The notes under the pieces: model-generated | Database searches by the model: none | Seen by the model: only the letters and a program-made list of their open reading frames with translations | Told to the model about the DNA's origin: nothing | Virus record (IMG/VR): IMGVR_UViG_3300007276_000203 | Coordinates: 1-29,514 of that record | Reading direction: 5' to 3' (one strand) | From: a virus | DNA: 29,514 nucleotides | Shown here: one piece after another, positions 2,534-29,317 of the stretch | How positions within the stretch are numbered: the stretch's first letter is position 1 | Layout of the letters: every line of letters begins with the position of its first letter | Program-made: the position numbers and the translations under genes

Positions 2534-3057
2534 GAAGTCGCCTCTTTCAAGGCAGCTTTAACAGCTTGCACAGACATATAATTTTCAGGTACTTGTATAC
2601 ATATGTGCGGAACTTCTAAATCTTGTAGCATAATGCTAAGAAGAGTATCCGCCACTGTAGTCCAACGCATACTAGGAACACCGCGCAACGCTACGCCTCC
2701 TAGATCCATTGTAGTAATCTTACATCTTTTCTCGGGACAATTCCAATGTAAGTTGTTAGCATAGTGATTCAAAGCTGCTTTCTGCGCGGCATACATATAC
2801 CCTTTGGATATATTCGGCTGGGCGGCACGAGAAGATATGTTAAAAATTATCTTTTTCGGATCAAATCTCCACTCATTGAATACGTACTCTAGCAACTCTA
2901 CTTGCTTGAAGCCAACGTGTGCATAGTTTATGAAACACCCATACTCATTAATATCTACTCTACCTTCGAGTATATCTTCAATGCGACAAGTGTCAATGGT
3001 TATAAGATGGTTAAGGGCAGAGTAAAGTGTACTAGTCCCGGTTATTAATGTTTTCAT
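2530..3057 (-). CDS. Short-chain dehydrogenase/reductase-like protein (short, degenerate)
   Basis: This 175-aa protein has the outline of an SDR Rossmann enzyme. It starts with a beta strand and glycine-poor turn (MKTLITGTSTLYSAL), has INYA near residue 43 in the place of the NNAG motif, ISS near 74-76 as the catalytic-serine strand, and YAAQK near 88-92 matching YxxxK. DLGGVALRG follows where SDRs have the PG motif. It is much shorter than the usual ~250 aa, and the TGxxxGxG nucleotide loop is degraded, so NAD(P) binding is uncertain. It overlaps the radical SAM gene by 26 bases and has AGGAG four bases before ATG. The substrate is unknown; coupling to the radical SAM gene suggests a shared pathway. 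Confidence 0.72.
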   Translation of the reverse strand: MKTLITGTSTLYSALNHLITIDTCRIEDILEGRVDINEYGCFINYAHVGFKQVELLEYVFNEWRFDPKKIIFNISSRAAQPNISKGYMYAAQKAALNHYANNLHWNCPEKRCKITTMDLGGVALRGVPSMRWTTVADTLLSIMLQDLEVPHICIQVPENYMSVQAVKAALKEATS

Positions 3058-3949
3058 AGTGCTCCTTTACTAGCTCAAATGACGGCTTTCCAAAGAGTGA
3101 ACCGTCTACGCTACATTTATTACAGGGAGACATAGATCTGTCGCCCTTCATTAGTTTTTTACGAATCTTGGTCATAGGCTTACTGAACCATACATCGTAT
3201 AGAGAATCTTGTAATAGATTGCCTACTACGTGCTCTCTGCCCCAATCATTACTACAGAACAGTACATCACCATTCCAATCGACAAACATTTTATAGAACG
3301 GGTAGTGACAAGGCTTACCTTGCAGTGCAGTAACACTACTTTCCTCGACCCCTACCCAATCCATAACTCCACTTCGATTGTTCAGAATTAAACCATGCTT
3401 CTCAAAATCGCCCCAGTGCATACGATACTTGTATCTATCTTGGGGAATATCTTTCATGACTTCATCAAAGTGTTCCATCTGCTCTATACCATCATAGAGG
3501 TTAATATACAAGATATCGAGACCCCGTAGCGAGATCAAGTCTTTTGCATACTCCGCAGTCAATCTATCCCCATTAGTGTTACACTCTATAGTAGCGTCTG
3601 GTAAATTTTCTCTAAAAGCTGATACTATTTCTGGAAACTGAGGATTGAGTAAGTTCTCTCCGAACCCGCTGAGAGATATCTTGCCTTTAAAATCATTAGA
3701 AGCAAGCTCTTCAGCAATAGTAACAGCACCTTTTACGGTCATATGAAGGTTTCGGTTAGGAAACACCTCTGGATCATGTCTAGGGCAGAATACACACGTT
3801 CTATTACACAACTCTGTAGTATTAATTTCTACAGTAAGTATAGAACGCAGAGGCGAGTCTTTGGTATTCTTTGACCAATGTGCGGCTTCTTGGTTTCTTC
3901 TGTGTTCCAAGAAGTCGTACTGGTCTACTGCTACTGTGGGTATCTTCAT
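3032..3949 (-). CDS. Radical SAM enzyme with SPASM-like C-terminal cysteines
   Basis: This 305-aa enzyme has the radical SAM cluster motif CNRTCVFC (Cys48, Cys52, Cys55) that binds a [4Fe-4S] cluster and cleaves S-adenosylmethionine. SGFGENLLNP near residues 94-103 sits where GGEP-type SAM contacts occur. The C-terminal part has Cys214, Cys232, Cys276 and Cys279 with VDWNGDVLFC, typical of SPASM domains that hold auxiliary clusters and often act on peptides or sugars. The ATG overlaps the PhoH stop as ATGA, so it is a full member of the replication operon. The substrate cannot be read from sequence. The SDR-like gene overlaps its 3' end. Family call firm; function open. Confidence 0.92.
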   Translation of the reverse strand: MKIPTVAVDQYDFLEHRRNQEAAHWSKNTKDSPLRSILTVEINTTELCNRTCVFCPRHDPEVFPNRNLHMTVKGAVTIAEELASNDFKGKISLSGFGENLLNPQFPEIVSAFRENLPDATIECNTNGDRLTAEYAKDLISLRGLDILYINLYDGIEQMEHFDEVMKDIPQDRYKYRMHWGDFEKHGLILNNRSGVMDWVGVEESSVTALQGKPCHYPFYKMFVDWNGDVLFCSNDWGREHVVGNLLQDSLYDVWFSKPMTKIRKKLMKGDRSMSPCNKCSVDGSLFGKPSFELVKEHYENINNRD

Positions 3950-9952: not shown

Positions 9953-10678
9953 TTAAGCTGAAGCTTTTTCTTTCTTAGAAGCGCCATCATAGTCAGCGGC
10001 TGAAAGGCCACGACGAGTGAGCATAGTCTTAACGCCACGGGCGGTCTTACCAATTTGCTCTGCGATAGCTTCGACAGTTTGGCTACCAATGTCAGCGATG
10101 TCAGCCAAAGGATCTTCTTTAGAGGAACCTTTAGTAACTTCTTGCTTAGGGATAGCGTCAATGTCGCCTGAACGAAGCAAGCTAAGAGCTTTACCACGAA
10201 CAGAGTTTACTGAACGATCAAGAGCGTCAGCGATAGCTTCTACGAAAGCGCCATCGTTAACCATCTGAACGAAAGTAGCTTCTTCAGCTTCAGAGTACGT
10301 GCGTACAGCTTCAACTTTAGGAGCAGGCTTAACGTGTCCAGTTAATTCCATAGACAAAATCTTGCCTTGGATTGACTTAGCTGAGAAAGCGCCATCTTCA
10401 AAGTGAGAAGCGATTTCAGCATAAGTGTAAGTGCCGCTGTTGTCAGAAACAAAAGCTGCAAGGGTAGCTTCTTGTGCATCAGTAAATGCGCGTGAAGCAT
10501 TGGCAGAAGCCAACTCTACATCGAAGCCCATCTTGCGCAATTTGCTAGAGATAGAACGTGTAGAGGTTTCAAGCTGGTCTGCTGCTTCTGCAACAGTAGC
10601 TTGGGATACGGGGCTTTCGCCACCGACAAAATCAGTGAGAGCGGTAGTACGCTCGTCAGTCCACTTAGGTAGTGCCAT
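9953..10678 (-). CDS. Multi-repeat HTH (Myb/SANT-like) DNA-binding protein
   Basis: This 241-aa protein appears to be built from four divergent copies of one ~50-residue helical unit. Three copies begin with a W/F/Y-T/S-(D/E)-containing helix: KWTDERTTAL near 5, AFTDAQEATL near 64 and TYSEAEEATF near 126. Each ends in a recognition-helix-like segment (TSTRSISSKLRKMGF, SAKSIQGKILSMEL, RSVNSVRGKALSLL). A fourth, shorter copy near 195-230 ends TARGVKTMLTRRGL. The tail KKEKASA is basic. This suggests a DNA-binding or nucleoid-like regulator, with no catalytic motif. The terminator follows directly, and it shares the promoter at 11460-11488 with the ligase C-terminal gene. A related single-unit protein lies at 13174-13617. 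Confidence 0.8.
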   Translation of the reverse strand: MALPKWTDERTTALTDFVGGESPVSQATVAEAADQLETSTRSISSKLRKMGFDVELASANASRAFTDAQEATLAAFVSDNSGTYTYAEIASHFEDGAFSAKSIQGKILSMELTGHVKPAPKVEAVRTYSEAEEATFVQMVNDGAFVEAIADALDRSVNSVRGKALSLLRSGDIDAIPKQEVTKGSSKEDPLADIADIGSQTVEAIAEQIGKTARGVKTMLTRRGLSAADYDGASKKEKASA

Positions 10679-10683
10679 GATAT

Positions 10684-11433
10684 TTATTCTCCAATAAAAT
10701 CTAAAAGGTTAGTTATGATTTGAACGCCAGCATCTCTGGCCTTCTTAGTTTTAGCAGATTCAATTCCGCTTTCGTTTACCAGGATAGTGACATCCTTAGT
10801 CAAGCTCGTCTTGACTGCATAACCAAGCTCTTGTAGTTTGTTATGAGCCTCGGCTTTCGTTTTGTAACTATTCAGTTTACCACTGATACAAATCGTGCCG
10901 TGGGTTATGTTTGTTGTTTGATTCTTTTCAAACTTAAAGCTAAAAGGTAGTAATGATACTTGGTAATACTCATTCTCAAGCCATTCGCACAAATTAGCAG
11001 TTGACTTCTCACCCAGTCCAGCCTGTCGGCACATATCGTAGTCTATATCTTCGATGTCTTCGCAGACTTTGGATAGCTTTTCCGATGCTGATTTACCAAT
11101 GAGAGGTATACTAAATGCAGGTAGCAACACGTTAAGTGGAGCACCGCGAGAGCGTTGCAACTCATCTACTAACTTTACAGCAAGTCGCTCTGAGCCTAGT
11201 GACTCGGCAATATCTTCTACGCTTCTATCATAAAGTTCCTCTAGGGAGACAATATCTAGTTTAGCAATAGTAGCAGGGCCAAGACCTTTGATCTTCAAAG
11301 TCTTTGCAAAGTGTTCGATGAGTTTTGCAACTTTCTCACCACATTGTGGATTTCTACAATACAGAAGATGATTCACACTTTCTAACACCGAACTACAACT
11401 AGGGCAGTTTGTTGGGGCTTCGATAATGGTCAT
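10684..11433 (-). CDS. NAD-dependent DNA ligase, C-terminal subunit (Zn finger, HhH, BRCT)
   Basis: This 249-aa protein equals the C-terminal half of bacterial LigA. It has a four-cysteine zinc finger (CPSC near 10-13 and CRNPQC near 26-31), helix-hairpin-helix segments (LKIKGLGPATIAKL near 46-59), then a C-terminal BRCT domain (ITHGTICISGKLNSYKTK onwards). It lacks the adenylation and OB domains, which are encoded by the separate gene at 11513-12433. The two halves are separated by 79 bases containing a perfect promoter, and the start ATG has AGAGGA six bases upstream. It is therefore a designed split, not a frameshift. T5-type phages also encode NAD ligase as two subunits. Confidence 0.93.
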   Translation of the reverse strand: MTIIEAPTNCPSCSSVLESVNHLLYCRNPQCGEKVAKLIEHFAKTLKIKGLGPATIAKLDIVSLEELYDRSVEDIAESLGSERLAVKLVDELQRSRGAPLNVLLPAFSIPLIGKSASEKLSKVCEDIEDIDYDMCRQAGLGEKSTANLCEWLENEYYQVSLLPFSFKFEKNQTTNITHGTICISGKLNSYKTKAEAHNKLQELGYAVKTSLTKDVTILVNESGIESAKTKKARDAGVQIITNLLDFIGE

Positions 11434-11512: not shown

Positions 11513-12433
11513 TCAATCTAATCTCCTAACAATCCGAGGTATGATCTCGCCAGAGCGGATAACCTCTACCTTACAGCCTATCTCAAGACCAAGGTCGCGT
11601 ATGTACTCAATATTGTGCAGAGTTGCTCTCGATACTGTAGCATCTCCCACGACCACAGGGTCGAGAATAGCCACTGGACTTACAACTCCACTCTTACCCA
11701 ACTGCCATACCACATCCAACAGCGTGGTCTCCACTCCAGACACCTGCTCTTTCAGAGCAAAAGCACCTCGTGGGTGTTTAGCGGTGTAACCTAACGCATC
11801 GAACTTTGCATTTGACTTGAGACGATATACTTTGCCATCCTGAGGATAGGCATCTGCTTTAAAGCGAGTAACCACATTTAGACCCATCCTATGCAAGATC
11901 TCAAGAGAGCAAGCATAATTAGAAGTCCAACTTGGTGTAACATCGTATGCTACAAATACTAAAGGGCGAGTTTTGAACTCAGCTAGATCATTAAGACCGA
12001 GCGACCCCGAAGCGAAATTACGAGAGTTAGGTACACTACTTGGAGCAACAACTTCGCCAGTAATCTGCATGAGTCCAGTATCGTTGCACTCATTAGGAAC
12101 TAACTGACGCATCTTATCTGTAATATCACGACCCTGAATGCCGTCTCCACGAGTGAGAGCGAGTTCAAGGTTGCCGTCAACATATAGAAGAGATACTGCC
12201 GCACCATCTAACTTAGGGGTAACAATACATTCATCAATAGGCAGAGGAGCATCGTTGATGTCAAAGCACTTCTGAAGAGAGTACATCTGGTACGCGTGCT
12301 TTACGGCATCTGTAACAGTGTAACCCACTTTAGTATAGTTGTGCTTAGCTGCTAGAAGATCGAACTCCGCATCAGAGATAGCGGGAGTACCTTCGTAGTA
12401 CAACTGACTCATTCTGTCTAAAAAGCTCTGCAT
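11513..12433 (-). CDS. NAD-dependent DNA ligase, N-terminal subunit (adenylation and OB domains)
   Basis: This 306-aa protein is the catalytic half of LigA. A short Ia-like segment (YYEGTPAISDAEFDLL, residues 12-27) for NAD binding precedes the nucleotidyltransferase domain with active-site lysine in TPKLDG, then TRGDGIQGRDIT, ITGEVV and NSRNFASGSL. The OB fold follows (WQLGKSGVVSPVAILDPV ... VSRATLHN ... EVIRSGEIIPRIV). It seals nicks using NAD+. It ends exactly where the zinc finger would start, and the rest is the separate gene at 10684-11433. It has its own promoter (12459-12487) and AGGAG six bases before ATG. The Ia domain is shorter than in bacterial ligases. Confidence 0.94.
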   Translation of the reverse strand: MQSFLDRMSQLYYEGTPAISDAEFDLLAAKHNYTKVGYTVTDAVKHAYQMYSLQKCFDINDAPLPIDECIVTPKLDGAAVSLLYVDGNLELALTRGDGIQGRDITDKMRQLVPNECNDTGLMQITGEVVAPSSVPNSRNFASGSLGLNDLAEFKTRPLVFVAYDVTPSWTSNYACSLEILHRMGLNVVTRFKADAYPQDGKVYRLKSNAKFDALGYTAKHPRGAFALKEQVSGVETTLLDVVWQLGKSGVVSPVAILDPVVVGDATVSRATLHNIEYIRDLGLEIGCKVEVIRSGEIIPRIVRRLD

Positions 12434-13676: not shown

Positions 13677-14057
13677 TTATTTTTTCTTATCTCTTACATT
13701 TTGTACGGCACTTTTTATTGCGTCTTCTGCTAGTACCGAACAGTGTATTTTTACGGGAGGCAAGGCTAACTCTTCTGCTATCTGTGTATTCTTCAGTAGC
13801 TCTGCTTCGCCTAAAGTCTTTCCTTTGACCCATTCAGTAAGCAGAGAGGAGGAGGCTATAGCCGACCCACATCCATAAGTTTTAAACTTTGCATTTACTA
13901 TAACATCATTCTCGTCTACCTGTATCTGTAGACGCATAACATCTCCACAGGCAGGAGCTCCTACCATTCCTGTTCCCACTAAAGGGTTGTCCTCATCTAG
14001 TTTTCCCACGTTTCTGGGATTTTCGTAGTGGTCTATTACTTTTTCTGAATAAGCCAT
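13677..14057 (-). CDS. iscU: IscU-like Fe-S cluster assembly scaffold
   Basis: This 126-aa protein is a full-length IscU. It begins MAYSEKVIDHYENPRNVG, as I recall the E. coli protein does, and keeps all ligand and partner residues at the same positions: Cys37 and Asp39 in GAPACGD, Cys63 in YGCGSAIASSS, LPPVK at 99-103 (the HscA recognition motif) and Cys106. IscU receives sulfur from IscS, builds a [2Fe-2S] cluster and hands it on. No IscS, IscA, HscA or HscB is in the window, so it would have to work with host partners. It is TAATG-coupled to the HTH gene in the ThyX operon. The similarity suggests recent acquisition from a gammaproteobacterium. Confidence 0.96.
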   Translation of the reverse strand: MAYSEKVIDHYENPRNVGKLDEDNPLVGTGMVGAPACGDVMRLQIQVDENDVIVNAKFKTYGCGSAIASSSLLTEWVKGKTLGEAELLKNTQIAEELALPPVKIHCSVLAEDAIKSAVQNVRDKKK

Positions 14058-19172: not shown

Positions 19173-19394
19173 CTATACCAAGTCTTTAAGGTCTTGGTAC
19201 CCACCTATATGCTCCCCATTCAGTATAATCTGAGGAACAGTCTTTGCGTAAGGAAATCTAGCAGTAAAGTCTTCTACTTCGTAGTCTCTATCTAACTTGA
19301 GTACTACCATTTCCATGTTTTTCTTTTTAGCAAGCGAGACAGCCATGTCACAATAGACACAACCATCTCTACTATAAATTACTATTTTATCCAT
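19173..19394 (-). CDS. Glutaredoxin-like protein
   Basis: This 73-aa thioredoxin-fold protein has the redox motif CVYC at residues 12-15, TVPQI with the cis-proline and GGYQDL, all standard for glutaredoxins. Phage glutaredoxins supply electrons for ribonucleotide reductase or carry Fe-S clusters; no reductase is in this window. The CxxC dithiol form favours a reductant. It overlaps the methyltransferase gene by 8 bases. Confidence 0.93.
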   Translation of the reverse strand: MDKIVIYSRDGCVYCDMAVSLAKKKNMEMVVLKLDRDYEVEDFTARFPYAKTVPQIILNGEHIGGYQDLKDLV

Positions 19395-20443: not shown

Positions 20444-20472
20444 ATTATACGCACAATTAAGGATACAGTCAA
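20444..20472 (-). promoter_or_regulatory. Leftward hub promoter, proximal
   Basis: TTGACT (20472-20467), 17-base spacer and TATAAT (20449-20444) on the minus strand, with TTC before the -35. It starts RNA near 20437 just upstream of the 45-aa gene. Confidence 0.87.
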
Positions 20473-20519: not shown

Positions 20520-20548
20520 ATTATACTCAAATTTATGTAGAATGTCAA
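20520..20548 (-). promoter_or_regulatory. Leftward hub promoter, distal
   Basis: TTGACA (20548-20543), 17-base spacer and TATAAT (20525-20520) on the minus strand. It lies 76 bases upstream of the proximal leftward promoter, so the leftward genes have tandem promoters. Confidence 0.87.
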
Positions 20549-20580: not shown

Positions 20581-20609
20581 TTGACAAGATACCCGCTTTC
20601 CGATATAAT
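20581..20609 (+). promoter_or_regulatory. Rightward hub promoter
   Basis: TTGACA (20581-20586), 17-base spacer and TATAAT (20604-20609). The predicted start near 20616 coincides with the A of the next gene's ATG. It is back to back with the distal leftward promoter, with TTCTTGACA facing outwards as a perfect 9-base inverted repeat. Confidence 0.88.
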
Positions 20610-20615
20610 ACTCCC

Positions 20616-20789
20616 ATGAAAAAATATAAAAGAAAGCCTTGGACTGATGAGGAGCGCAAGATACTTGCTACTCACTATTTTTACCAAGACATTGAATCAA
20701 TAATGTATATGCTCCCTGGGCGAACTGAGCAATCTATTCGTAATCAGGTATCATATCTAAGAAAAAGAGGATATAGGTTTAAGAAATGA
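20616..20789 (+). CDS. 57-aa SANT/Myb-like DNA-binding protein, probably leaderless
   Basis: The first rightward gene has a basic head (MKKYKRK) and a SANT/Myb-like unit (PWTDEERKILATHYFYQDI, then LPGRTEQSIRNQVSYLRKRG), ending YRFKK. GRTEQSIRNQ with the following leucine is the typical recognition helix. It probably binds DNA and may regulate the hub. The ATG is six bases after the -10 box (20604-20609), so the mRNA probably starts at the ATG and has no leader or ribosome site. It is ATGA-coupled to the membrane peptide. Confidence 0.85.
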   Translation: MKKYKRKPWTDEERKILATHYFYQDIESIMYMLPGRTEQSIRNQVSYLRKRGYRFKK

Positions 20790-20875
20790 TGTTAGACACT
20801 ACACAAGCCGCTGCTCTTATAGCACTATTAGTTTTCTGGATCATCATCAAAGATAAGGATGATTATGACGATTAA
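20786..20875 (+). CDS. 29-aa membrane peptide
   Basis: A 29-codon frame starting at ATG 20786 (second ATG at 20789) encodes one hydrophobic segment (AAALIALLVFWIIIK, about residues 8-22) and an acidic tail (DKDDYDD). It overlaps the previous stop as ATGA and the bS21 start, so it is part of a coupled run. Single-pass membrane microproteins are common in phages; the role is unknown. Confidence 0.62.
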   Translation: MMLDTTQAAALIALLVFWIIIKDKDDYDD

Positions 20876-21059
20876 AGTAAGAAACGGCAATGTCGAGCAA
20901 GCACTCCGTATATTTCGCAGAAAGGTAAACGATAGTAATAAGCTGTTCGATTACAAAGAAAAGCAATATCACGAGAAGAAAACTACTAAACGTCAGCGCA
21001 AAAAAGCTGCTGCTAAACAAAGAGAGCGTAAACGACAATGCAAGGATATAAAGTATTAA
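20865..21059 (+). CDS. rpsU: Ribosomal protein bS21 (phage-encoded)
   Basis: This 64-aa protein matches small-subunit ribosomal protein bS21. TIKVRNGNVEQALRIFRRKV corresponds to the family's VKVREN...AL..FKR start, followed by KEKQYHEKKTTKRQRKKAAA, the classic (R/K)-x-x-YEKPTxxRKRKK-type stretch, and a basic tail. bS21 sits at the mRNA exit region near the anti-Shine-Dalgarno and affects initiation. I choose ATG 20865, five bases after AAGGA; a Met two codons earlier is possible. The phage copy could replace host bS21 and bias ribosomes towards phage mRNA; the bias is inference. Confidence 0.93.
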   Translation: MTIKVRNGNVEQALRIFRRKVNDSNKLFDYKEKQYHEKKTTKRQRKKAAAKQRERKRQCKDIKY

Positions 21060-21625
21060 AGAACGTAATCCCCTCTACCTATTTGAAGATAGCGCAGAAC
21101 GAAACTCTGCGCCTGAAGACTTGGTTGCTCAAGGAAAATTTGCTCGGAACCCGTAGCGAGTTAGGCACGGGAGAGTACTGGAGAGGTATAGAAACAGCAG
21201 GTAGACTTAGTAGAGCTTTGAGACAAATGTACGAAAGCCCTTTCATGTTAGACCTGGCTAGAGAATACTTAGGTGATACATTCTATACTTACAACGATCA
21301 GGTAGTGGTAAAGATGCCACAGGAGCGATTCGCTTTTGAACCTCATCGAGACAATCAGTATGGACAAGATCCTACAGGTAAGTTTAAGACTCTTAACTTT
21401 ACTTGGATACTAGACGACCAGAAAGACATAAGAGTAATGGATGGCATGGTTTGGTTACAGCCAGAGCTAGAGGCAGGAGATATTCTTATCTTAGACGGCA
21501 ACACAATTCACTGTTCGGGCTTCAACAATACCGACAAACCTAGGCGTAACTGGTGTTGCGTTTATTCTAAAGAAAAGCCCGATTATATGGACTTTTACTC
21601 AGAGAAAGTGTCTTTTACTTCTTGA
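21038..21625 (+). CDS. Phytanoyl-CoA dioxygenase (PhyH)-like Fe(II)/2OG oxygenase
   Basis: This 195-aa protein has the 2-oxoglutarate/Fe(II) oxygenase facial triad: His103-x-Asp105 in EPHRDNQ and His158 in NTIHCSG, followed by Arg169/Arg170 where 2OG is bound. DILILDGNTIHCSGFNN with PRRNW is characteristic of the PhyH branch. Such enzymes hydroxylate small molecules, and phage members are mostly unassigned; the substrate here is unknown. The gene overlaps bS21 by 22 bases, and its stop codon runs through the -35 box of the next promoter. Confidence 0.9.
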   Translation: MQGYKVLKNVIPSTYLKIAQNETLRLKTWLLKENLLGTRSELGTGEYWRGIETAGRLSRALRQMYESPFMLDLAREYLGDTFYTYNDQVVVKMPQERFAFEPHRDNQYGQDPTGKFKTLNFTWILDDQKDIRVMDGMVWLQPELEAGDILILDGNTIHCSGFNNTDKPRRNWCCVYSKEKPDYMDFYSEKVSFTS

Positions 21626-21650
21626 CATTTTACCCCAATAGGCGTATAAT
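21622..21650 (+). promoter_or_regulatory. Sigma70 promoter, second rightward unit
   Basis: TTGACA (21622-21627), 17-base spacer and TATAAT (21645-21650), preceded by TTC. RNA should start near 21657, leading into GGGAG before the ATG at 21674. Confidence 0.9.
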
Positions 21651-21673: not shown

Positions 21674-22114
21674 ATGATAAATGTACAAACTGAAGGCAGA
21701 GACCTATCCAAATACAGCTCATTCATTGATGAGTGCATCATGTCCTTATTTCCTGAGGACGCGACTTATGACATCTACTTCGAGGTCAAGAAGTTCGTTG
21801 ACAAAGACGGCTCTCATGCTGGTTTTTGCATGGGTGACGACATCGAGTCTGTTATCAGTCTCGCTACCCATTGGGTATACGAGGATGGAGAGGAAATTGC
21901 CTACGAGCCACATGAGCTTGCATCCAACATTGCACACGAGTTAGTACACGCAAAACAGTTCTACAGAGGACAAATCAATATGGTAGATAACGTATGGAAA
22001 CACAACAATGTAATGATTGACTGTGACACAATAAACTATGAAGATCTACCTTGGGAAGTTGAGGCTTACGCGTACGAAGTAATCCTCACAGACTTATTAT
22101 GGGAGAATGTATAA
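21674..22114 (+). CDS. Zincin-like metallopeptidase (HExxH)
   Basis: This 146-aa protein has a gluzincin-type site: HELVH at residues 88-92 within NIAHELVHAKQF, and a later WEVEAYAYE segment that could give the third glutamate ligand. It is small, and I place it near phage-type M78/SprT-like zincins without choosing a family. The ATG has GGAG five bases upstream, and it is the first gene after the promoter at 21622-21650. Substrate unknown; a host regulator or phage protein are both possible. Confidence 0.85.
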   Translation: MINVQTEGRDLSKYSSFIDECIMSLFPEDATYDIYFEVKKFVDKDGSHAGFCMGDDIESVISLATHWVYEDGEEIAYEPHELASNIAHELVHAKQFYRGQINMVDNVWKHNNVMIDCDTINYEDLPWEVEAYAYEVILTDLLWENV

Positions 22115-26607: not shown

Positions 26608-26994
26608 ATGAGCAGTACACAAATATCAAATTTTGAAAAGGTAGGTGATTTCATGGAGGCTTTCGGTCAGGAAGTTCTATATGTACCCACCATGCCTGAC
26701 TTTAACCTCGCGGCACTACGCCTCGACCTCATCGAAGAAGAAGTACAGGAGCTAAGAGATGGACTTGGAAGAAGTAGTTTACTTGAAGTTGCGGACGCAC
26801 TTACAGATATACTCTACGTTGTATACGGAGCTGGCCATGCCTTTGGCATTGATCTTGACGATTGCTTTGACGAAGTTCATCGCTCTAACATGACGAAACT
26901 AGGCGAAGATGGTCGTCCTCTCTATCGAGACGATGGCAAGGTAATGAAAGGCCCGAACTATAGGGAGCCTGACCTTGACCAATTTGTACGATGA
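26608..26994 (+). CDS. MazG-like nucleotide pyrophosphohydrolase
   Basis: This 128-aa all-helical protein has the acidic NTP-PPase signature (LIEEEVQELRDGLG followed by EVADALTDILYVVYG), i.e. EExxE and ExxD acidic clusters that bind Mg2+. The MazG/PRA-PH class hydrolyses (d)NTPs or alarmones to monophosphates. In phages it may clean up altered nucleotides or blunt the stringent response; the substrate is not fixed by sequence. It is the first gene after its promoter, AGGAA six bases upstream. Confidence 0.88.
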   Translation: MSSTQISNFEKVGDFMEAFGQEVLYVPTMPDFNLAALRLDLIEEEVQELRDGLGRSSLLEVADALTDILYVVYGAGHAFGIDLDDCFDEVHRSNMTKLGEDGRPLYRDDGKVMKGPNYREPDLDQFVR

Positions 26995-28061: not shown

Positions 28062-28602
28062 TCCTCCGAAACAATGGATGGGCAACTATAATCATTTTGC
28101 CTATGGCTTTGCCAACATGATGATGAAACTTACTCGAATGGGAGTAAGAGGTTCTGCACTTGAGATAGGTTCTTACACAGGCGACACTGCACTGATGATG
28201 CATATGTTTGGTATCTTTGACGAGATACACTGTGTAGAACCTTTCGAGGGTAAGGAAGAATTTCTTCTAAGGTCTCCAACTTTCCAATGGTGGAATGTTC
28301 AGGCGGAGTTTAGTTTGAATACCCGCAATGCACCCGTAGTGCTTCACAAAGGCTACTCCTACAATATACTTCCTACAATGGATAAACAATTCGACTTCAT
28401 CTACATTGATGGAGCGCACGACTACGAAAGTGTAAAGCAGGACATTGAACTTGCACTTCCGCTACTGAAGCCAAAAGGTATTATAGCAGGACATGACTAT
28501 CTACCTCAACATGAGGAGGTAGCAAAAGCAGTACACGAGGTACTTGGTAAGCCCACACACCGATTTGAAGATGATAGCTGGATGTATGTTGGTAAAAGGT
28601 AG
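28030..28602 (+). CDS. Class I SAM-dependent methyltransferase (Methyltransf_24-like)
   Basis: This 190-aa Rossmann methyltransferase has motif I SALEIGSYTGDTA near residues 42-54, an acidic strand (HCVEPFEG) and FDFIYIDGAHDYESVKQDIE, typical of the Methyltransf_24 branch that often methylates sugars or natural-product precursors. GIIAGHDYLPQHEEV follows. The substrate is unknown. ATG 28030 is used; ATG 28042, four codons in, is equally possible. It overlaps the radical SAM gene by 32 bases. Confidence 0.88.
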   Translation: MAKNMLTPRFNPPKQWMGNYNHFAYGFANMMMKLTRMGVRGSALEIGSYTGDTALMMHMFGIFDEIHCVEPFEGKEEFLLRSPTFQWWNVQAEFSLNTRNAPVVLHKGYSYNILPTMDKQFDFIYIDGAHDYESVKQDIELALPLLKPKGIIAGHDYLPQHEEVAKAVHEVLGKPTHRFEDDSWMYVGKR

Positions 28603-29317
28603 CTTTGATCTTTATATTACAAATGTCTGTAATCTACACTGCAAGAACTGTATAGTACTCGACTATAAAGGTCGAGTCACCATTCCTCATCTCTCACTCG
28701 CAGAGATACAAGAAATACTCGAAAAGATTCCCGTACAGCTAGAACAGATACAATTAGTGGGTGGAGAACCCACTCTGCACCCGCAGCTAGAGGAGATTGT
28801 ACTCGCTATAAGAAGTTCAAACAAAGCACAGAAACTGAGCATTGTTACGAATGGTACAAATTATACACCAGAAACTGCGAGAATCTTTGAGATGTTTGAT
28901 ACTGTAGTTCACACTGAGTATGTGAAGCTAGGAAGAACAAAGCAACTTCCACCTTTTGTAACGAAGGTCTATGAACAAGAGTATTTCGACTACTGGTTTA
29001 CTTACTCACCCTACAGAGAGTATTCACACCAACTCAACTGGGATAGATGTTATATGAAGGATGAGTGTTCCACCTTAACGAAGGAAGGTGTTTACTACTG
29101 TCCCATTACGATGAACGAAGGACTAGAAGTACAACCATACAGCAGTCTAAAAACTTTTAGAGATAGAACGAAACCTCTCGACTTTTGTGAAGAGTGTCCC
29201 ATGCCTTGTATGCAGAGCGAGTGGAAGAGTAACAGACCAACTACAGATTCTAGAGTATATGAAAAAGGGAGAGAAAACCTAGTACAGTTGCTGAATCTCT
29301 ACTCCTCAGAAAAATAG
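28571..29317 (+). CDS. Radical SAM enzyme (second in window)
   Basis: This ~248-aa radical SAM protein has CNLHCKNC (Cys20, Cys24, Cys27 from the chosen start) as the [4Fe-4S] motif and GGEPTLHP for SAM binding. A C-terminal cysteine set (CYMKDEC, YYCPITM, CEECPMPC) may hold an auxiliary cluster. It is organised like SPASM/Twitch enzymes but differs from the first radical SAM protein (3032-3949). The start is uncertain among ATG 28571 and ATG 28586; neither has a strong ribosome site, so coupling to the methyltransferase is likely. Substrate unknown. Confidence 0.9.
   Translation: MIAGCMLVKGSFDLYITNVCNLHCKNCIVLDYKGRVTIPHLSLAEIQEILEKIPVQLEQIQLVGGEPTLHPQLEEIVLAIRSSNKAQKLSIVTNGTNYTPETARIFEMFDTVVHTEYVKLGRTKQLPPFVTKVYEQEYFDYWFTYSPYREYSHQLNWDRCYMKDECSTLTKEGVYYCPITMNEGLEVQPYSSLKTFRDRTKPLDFCEECPMPCMQSEWKSNRPTTDSRVYEKGRENLVQLLNLYSSEK

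Follow-up and report, generated by a model that had tools for sequence, protein, structure and literature searches.

What does a phage gain from its own copy of ribosomal protein bS21, and from carrying it at this place in its genome? The gene considered here lies in a 29,514-nucleotide stretch of viral DNA, which was analysed over its whole length and is called the window below. Phage bS21 is well known and abundant, more than 14,000 IMG/VR hits having been mentioned (PMC9723584; also PMC6375957), and carriers already known include HTVC008M, Melnitz, Kolga and large Pseudomonas phages. There is nothing unusual about the kind of gene found here. The new part is its setting, an operon which appears to be leaderless and translationally coupled; no description of such a bS21 operon was found in the titles and abstracts of the literature on leaderless mRNAs, bS21 and phages. 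This setting bears on why so many aquatic phages carry bS21. Earlier work, on Bacteroidetes phages, found late expression beside capsid genes. In the lineage of the window, Shine-Dalgarno use goes together with a bS21 gene that lies in a divergent control region and is tied by overlapping cistrons to an apparently leaderless message.

The bS21 gene and its known counterparts

A sequence-only reading of the window had assigned bS21 to the frame listed in Table 1, and profile searches bore this out. The translation (MTIKVRNGNVEQALRIFRRKVNDSNKLFDYKEKQYHEKKTTKRQRKKAAAKQRERKRQCKDIKY) matches Pfam PF01165 over the full profile (positions 1-55 of 55; 3.6e-13, 49.4 bits, curated cut-off 27), NCBIfam TIGR00030 (1.9e-14, 53.2 bits, curated cut-off 28.95) and PHROG 21469 'ribosomal protein S21'. 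Its relatives in the PDB are bS21 chains, the best ones of the gammaproteobacterial type. The protein is small and strongly basic, with 23 K or R and 7 D or E among 64 residues. In an alignment of 31 sequences, including that of E. coli, residues V5, A13, R15, A50 and R53 are invariant and L14, F17, K20, L27, E37, K38 and K56 nearly so, while the short C-terminal tail varies among relatives. Throughout the clade, bS21 differs from the E. coli protein at the same places, with YKEK or YREK where E. coli has VRRR. An alternative in-frame ATG at 20859 overlaps the AAGGA site of the gene.

When IMG/VR was scanned with the single protein, 28 loci came up; with the family alignment as query there were 113 relatives. 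Over 58 codons compared with one of them (L004), 23 of the differences in the window gene are synonymous and 4 are non-synonymous (dS 1.78, dN 0.03); with another (L005), dN/dS is about 0.11. Because the family scores lie over their cut-offs and the changes are mostly synonymous, we conclude on sequence grounds that the gene is real and under strong purifying selection.

Table 1. Features of the divergent control region and the rightward arm of the window
Feature	Position	Strand	Basis
Second tandem leftward promoter	20444-20472	-	11/12 consensus matches; 76 bp from the first
Divergent leftward promoter, head of replication arm	20520-20548	-	12/12 matches
Rightward sigma70-type promoter, TTGACA-17-TATAAT	20581-20609	+	12/12 matches
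Head cistron, 57-aa Myb/SANT-like (T5 D5-like) protein	20616-20789	+	PHROG, Pfam, AlphaFold, Foldseek
29-aa peptide, one predicted membrane helix (by eye), acidic tail	20786-20875	+	sequence
Shine-Dalgarno AAGGA of bS21	20855-20859	+	5 nt upstream of ATG 20865
bS21, 64 aa	20865-21059	+	profile matches, IMG/VR relatives, dN/dS
PhyH-like Fe(II)/2-oxoglutarate dioxygenase	21038-21625	+	Pfam PF05721, 5.7e-09
Second rightward promoter	21622-21650	+	12/12 matches
Small zincin-like protein, 146 aa, HELVH...PWEVEA	21674-22114	+	alignment, AlphaFold, fold comparison

With the named phage examples that were compared, the window bS21 shares 32-41% identity, and with E. coli bS21 37%. The Pelagibacter phage HTVC008M (AGE60443; Mizuno et al. 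2019) has a bS21 of similar size with no other ribosomal protein annotated nearby, and a 2-oxoglutarate oxygenase gene about 1 kb downstream of it recalls the window. However, HTVC008M is a 147-kb myovirus whose bS21 (33% identity) lies near clamp and clamp-loader genes, and a leaderless head module such as that of the window is not seen in its annotation. In another Pelagibacter phage, Kolga EXVC016S, bS21 (36% identity) lies behind a phage RNA polymerase gene. It is directly preceded by a peptide of 48 aa whose C-terminal part includes a hydrophobic stretch (L117, 7821-7967), similar to the membrane peptide of the window; Kolga differs in having its own RNA polymerase and in the absence of an annotated Myb-like head cistron beside bS21. 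Annotated bS21 genes are also found in large Pseudomonas phages (PA5oct and Paride, the latter with 41% identity) and in Methylophilales phage Melnitz (32% identity, with a relative of the HExxH protein described below about 4 kb away), in both cases in unrelated genome types with unrelated neighbours.

In the large phages infecting Bacteroidetes (Chen et al. 2022, PMC9723584), bS21 is thought to enter host ribosomes, as we propose here, but it is encoded on the reverse strand in the capsid/terminase region, is expressed late and has an aromatic residue at the Tyr54 position. The window bS21 is instead found in a divergent, early-type region and lacks aromatic residues from position 37 to position 63. 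It does not belong to the Bacteroidia-type bS21 that sequesters the anti-Shine-Dalgarno, since the Tyr54 position lacks an aromatic residue and the genes of the window use Shine-Dalgarno sites. Nor does it belong to the late, capsid-linked type of Chen et al. (2022), since in a sister contig it lies outside the terminase/capsid/portal region.

A conserved operon with an apparently leaderless first message

The sequence-only reading had placed bS21 behind the first rightward promoter and a membrane peptide. Both are present, the promoter in exact consensus form and the peptide (MMLDTTQAAALIALLVFWIIIKDKDDYDD) directly before bS21; omitted from that description was the first gene of the operon, which encodes the Myb/D5-like protein. 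The ATG of this head cistron begins 6 nt (ACTCCC) after the -10 box and has no Shine-Dalgarno site. By standard promoter numbering, +1 falls on the A of ATG 20616 or on a neighbouring base, a 5' end predicted from geometry, and we infer that the head cistron mRNA is leaderless. The frame of the membrane peptide opens within the end of the head cistron and closes 11 nt inside bS21. Such overlapping cistrons have the usual look of translational coupling, which we take to be probable here.

The nature of the head protein is suggested by several partial matches. It matches PHROG 323 'transcriptional regulator, D5-like' at 4.4e-05 over only positions 91-139 of the 319 in the profile; the window also has a gene for a more complete D5-like protein, at 9953-10678 (3e-44). 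The match to Pfam Myb (0.0011) is below the cut-off. The AlphaFold model has three helices with a pLDDT of 90, and its top Foldseek match is the Myb domain 1idy, with probability 0.95 but an E value of 0.25.

Conservation of the head gene was followed in 70 distinct sequences, which are mutually related so that the counts are not independent trials. The promoter matches at 12/12 positions in 69 of these relatives and at 11/12 in one, and the head ATG lies 6 nt behind the -10 box in 64 (5, 7, 8 or 9 nt in the others). The six bases themselves vary widely (ACTCCC, AATCGC, AGCGTC, ACTGTT, AACTTC and others). As a control, the next gene in the same loci starts 21-35 nt after its -10 box and has a Shine-Dalgarno core in 45 of 46 cases; at the other exact promoters of the window, the start codon lies about 20 nt or more away, with a Shine-Dalgarno site where the start is assignable. 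That the length is fixed while the bases are free points to a constraint acting on the 5' end of the mRNA. The two tandem leftward promoters are also regularly arranged, with a spacing of 75-78 bp in the relatives examined. Nine exact TTGACA-16/18-TATAAT promoters occur on both strands of the 29.5-kb window, compared to an expected mean of 0.02 (200 first-order Markov sequences). As a set, the window promoters are unusually consensus-like.

The bS21 gene follows the head gene in 56 of the 60 loci with 900 nt of room. The remaining four (L101, L157, L161 and L167) keep the leaderless head, at 6 nt, and have no bS21, and bS21 is therefore not essential to the module. Among 64 loci having both genes, 54 have a small frame between them by a loose ORF rule that also picks a few unrelated frames (L012, L063, L198). 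In 50 of the 54, the head/peptide junction falls within -8 to +3 nt, and in 45 the peptide and bS21 overlap or abut. The rule used for junctions chose ATG 20859 in the window and therefore counts a peptide/bS21 overlap of 17 nt there. Seven relatives lack the peptide; in these, the head cistron and bS21 are joined directly, by a 4-nt overlap of stop and start. Judged from these arrangements, a conserved operon with an apparently leaderless first message appears to be shared by this phage and about 60 related phages.

Possible role of the phage bS21 in initiation

The bS21 protein is among those required for canonical Shine-Dalgarno mRNAs, and it is missing from the 61S ribosomes which are selective for leaderless mRNAs (PMC4929434). 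The HTVC008M protein enters E. coli 70S ribosomes (PMC6375957). As the window gene is a genuine bS21 under selection, the best reading by analogy with HTVC008M is that its product acts on the 30S subunit. We consider it rather likely that a functional phage bS21, made from a short operon served by host sigma70, enters the 30S and supports initiation on Shine-Dalgarno-led phage mRNAs. Host RNA polymerase would make an mRNA that begins with the AUG of the Myb/D5-like regulator. Ribosomes starting at this leaderless AUG would pass by coupling to the membrane peptide and then to bS21, and bS21's own Shine-Dalgarno site may add to the coupled translation in some relatives. Host bS21 is loosely bound to the 30S platform, and the phage protein could then replace or supplement it there and maintain or increase initiation on the Shine-Dalgarno-led phage mRNAs. 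In the simplest reading, the phage would produce its bS21 shortly after entry, so that initiation on these messages is sustained or steered.

That many phage mRNAs carry GGAG sites had been pointed out from the sequence, and Shine-Dalgarno use is indeed real. A core of at least 4 bases precedes 35 of the 54 assigned genes, compared to 13.6% of 250 internal start codons, and GGAG is found at 18 of the 54. The further suggestion that phage bS21 could shift host ribosomes towards phage mRNAs fares less well. Ribosomes with HTVC008M bS21 retained about 5% of translation activity in a heterologous E. coli in vitro test (PMC6375957), a loss and not a redirection, and the head cistron of the window has no Shine-Dalgarno site; both count against such a shift. 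The near loss of E. coli translation also implies that incorporation need not mean support.

The strongest competitor, to which we give only slightly less than an even chance, is that the leaderless head serves the Myb/D5-like regulator itself, bS21 being a passenger behind a strong early promoter. The cI mRNA of phage lambda is leaderless and offers a precedent for a leaderless regulator. The four relatives that keep the 6-nt head without bS21 favour this reading, as leaderlessness may be unrelated to bS21 and may serve the regulator alone. However, bS21 is in the operon at nearly all of the loci with room and is joined directly to the head gene in the seven relatives without the peptide, which is more than expected from chance carriage.

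Phage bS21 may instead be a matter of supply, keeping the ribosome pool complete when host bS21 is limiting during infection or starvation, with no preference among mRNAs. This agrees with bS21 being one of the exchangeable ribosomal proteins favoured by viruses (PMC6375957), and in the comparisons made here the phage mRNAs were not special beyond ordinary Shine-Dalgarno use. The clade-wide YKEK or YREK in place of VRRR suggests a changed function, not a plain spare copy, and we regard supply alone as possible but unlikely.

Poisoning of host mRNA initiation by the phage bS21, with phage mRNAs escaping through another phage factor, would fit the low activity of the HTVC008M bS21 ribosomes in the E. 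coli system (PMC6375957). That assay used a foreign host, and the phage mRNAs here depend on the same Shine-Dalgarno route which would be blocked, so that we find host shut-off improbable.

We attach a similarly low likelihood to a bS21-responsive switch. Ribosomes poor in bS21 would translate the leaderless regulator and, by coupling, bS21; as bS21 filled the 30S pool, initiation would move to Shine-Dalgarno-led genes and the head cistron would fall relatively, and the downstream HExxH protein might remove host bS21. A related idea comes from the rpsU autoregulation of Flavobacterium johnsoniae (McNutt et al. 2023, PMC9976891), in which ribosomes without bS21 preferentially translate rpsU, the bS21 message. 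There it works via an extended Shine-Dalgarno site, whereas in the window it would work, if at all, via a leaderless AUG and coupling. Against the switch, the head is still leaderless in the four relatives without bS21. A possible link between bS21 supply and initiation mode is directly testable because the leaderless-translating 61S ribosomes lack bS21.

That this small basic protein binds nucleic acids away from the ribosome could be argued from its lysine and arginine content and from the bS21 reported in the OLE RNP (PMC12054373). We regard such a role as very improbable, given that the full bS21 profile is covered, including the positions common with E. coli.

Downstream genes, lineage and host

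The start of the PhyH-like gene overlaps the end of bS21 by 22 nt. We dropped the idea that this enzyme modifies bS21, as it adjoins bS21 only in the window's own subclade and one relative (L101) has PhyH without bS21. The second rightward promoter serves a gene with the Shine-Dalgarno site GGGAG, 23 nt after the -10 box. The HExxH gene is the next transcription unit after bS21 in 55 of the 60 head-gene loci with room. Its product, assigned to PHROG 10499/16532 of unknown function, has HExxH and PWExEA motifs with H88, E89, H92, E128 and E130 invariant in 29 aligned sequences. The AlphaFold model (pLDDT 93) scores a VIA-align Z of 9.4 to both the YbeY-fold 1oz9 and the aminopeptidase ERAP2 5ab2, and the best Foldseek E value is 0.012. 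Relatives occur in Melnitz phages and in another locus (L069), both with bS21 a few kilobases away, and also in Sinorhizobium phages, for which the searches made gave no bS21. A YbeY-type 16S rRNA nuclease was rejected, since aminopeptidases reach the same Z, no Foldseek match lies below 1e-3 and relatives are found in the Sinorhizobium phages. From the model, the protein is a candidate zincin-like metallopeptidase (gluzincin). McNutt et al. (2023, PMC9976891) raised the speculative idea that phages with bS21 might also carry a protease that attacks the bS21 of the host, and the HExxH protein is a candidate for this activity, nothing more.

The window had no near DNA match among 50,697 phage records, and no tRNA genes were found in it. 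The phage belongs to the siphoviruses, and its DNA polymerase is of the T5 type, sharing 44-45% identity with the enzymes of T5-like phages of gammaproteobacteria. A 72.9-kb sister contig (G001; L085-L088) encodes an identical bS21. Its genes for both terminase subunits (small and large), the portal, the capsid/protease, the major tail protein and a J-like tail tip are found at 5.9-33 kb. The replication arm starts at about 68.4 kb and extends leftward to 41.6 kb, while bS21, at 68.7 kb, opens a rightward arm of small genes. By this gene order, bS21 belongs to a divergent control region and is set apart from the structural genes. Early timing of bS21 is likely because that region is remote from the structural genes, an argument by analogy from gene order. 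The terminase small-subunit gene of this contig (L085, 5825-6322) starts 7 nt after an exact TTGACA-17-TATAAT and is a second candidate leaderless gene.

A Bacteroidetes host was considered and rejected. The only cellular match (L032) is a 4-kb phage contig in the MAG UBA10340, with the same module and a lysozyme-like gene, and the MAG's own bS21 has Tyr54, is very different and gives no BLASTP match to the window bS21. We treat this contig (L032/G006:C239) as a phage fragment of this lineage, present by binning error or from an infecting phage. The window IscU is 71-77% identical to gammaproteobacterial and betaproteobacterial IscU, and this, together with the DNA polymerase identities, hints weakly at a gammaproteobacterial host.

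The phage-encoded IscU/NifU_N iron-sulphur scaffold (13677-14057, minus strand; 172 bits), a glutaredoxin (19173-19394) and two radical SAM proteins (3032-3949 and 28544-29317) suggest an Fe-S cluster theme. Two adjacent minus-strand frames (10684-11433 and 11513-12433), each with an exact promoter, look by eye like split halves of an NAD-dependent DNA ligase. A MazG/PRA-PH-type pyrophosphohydrolase (26608-26994, plus strand; Pfam PF01503, 72 bits) also has its own exact promoter.
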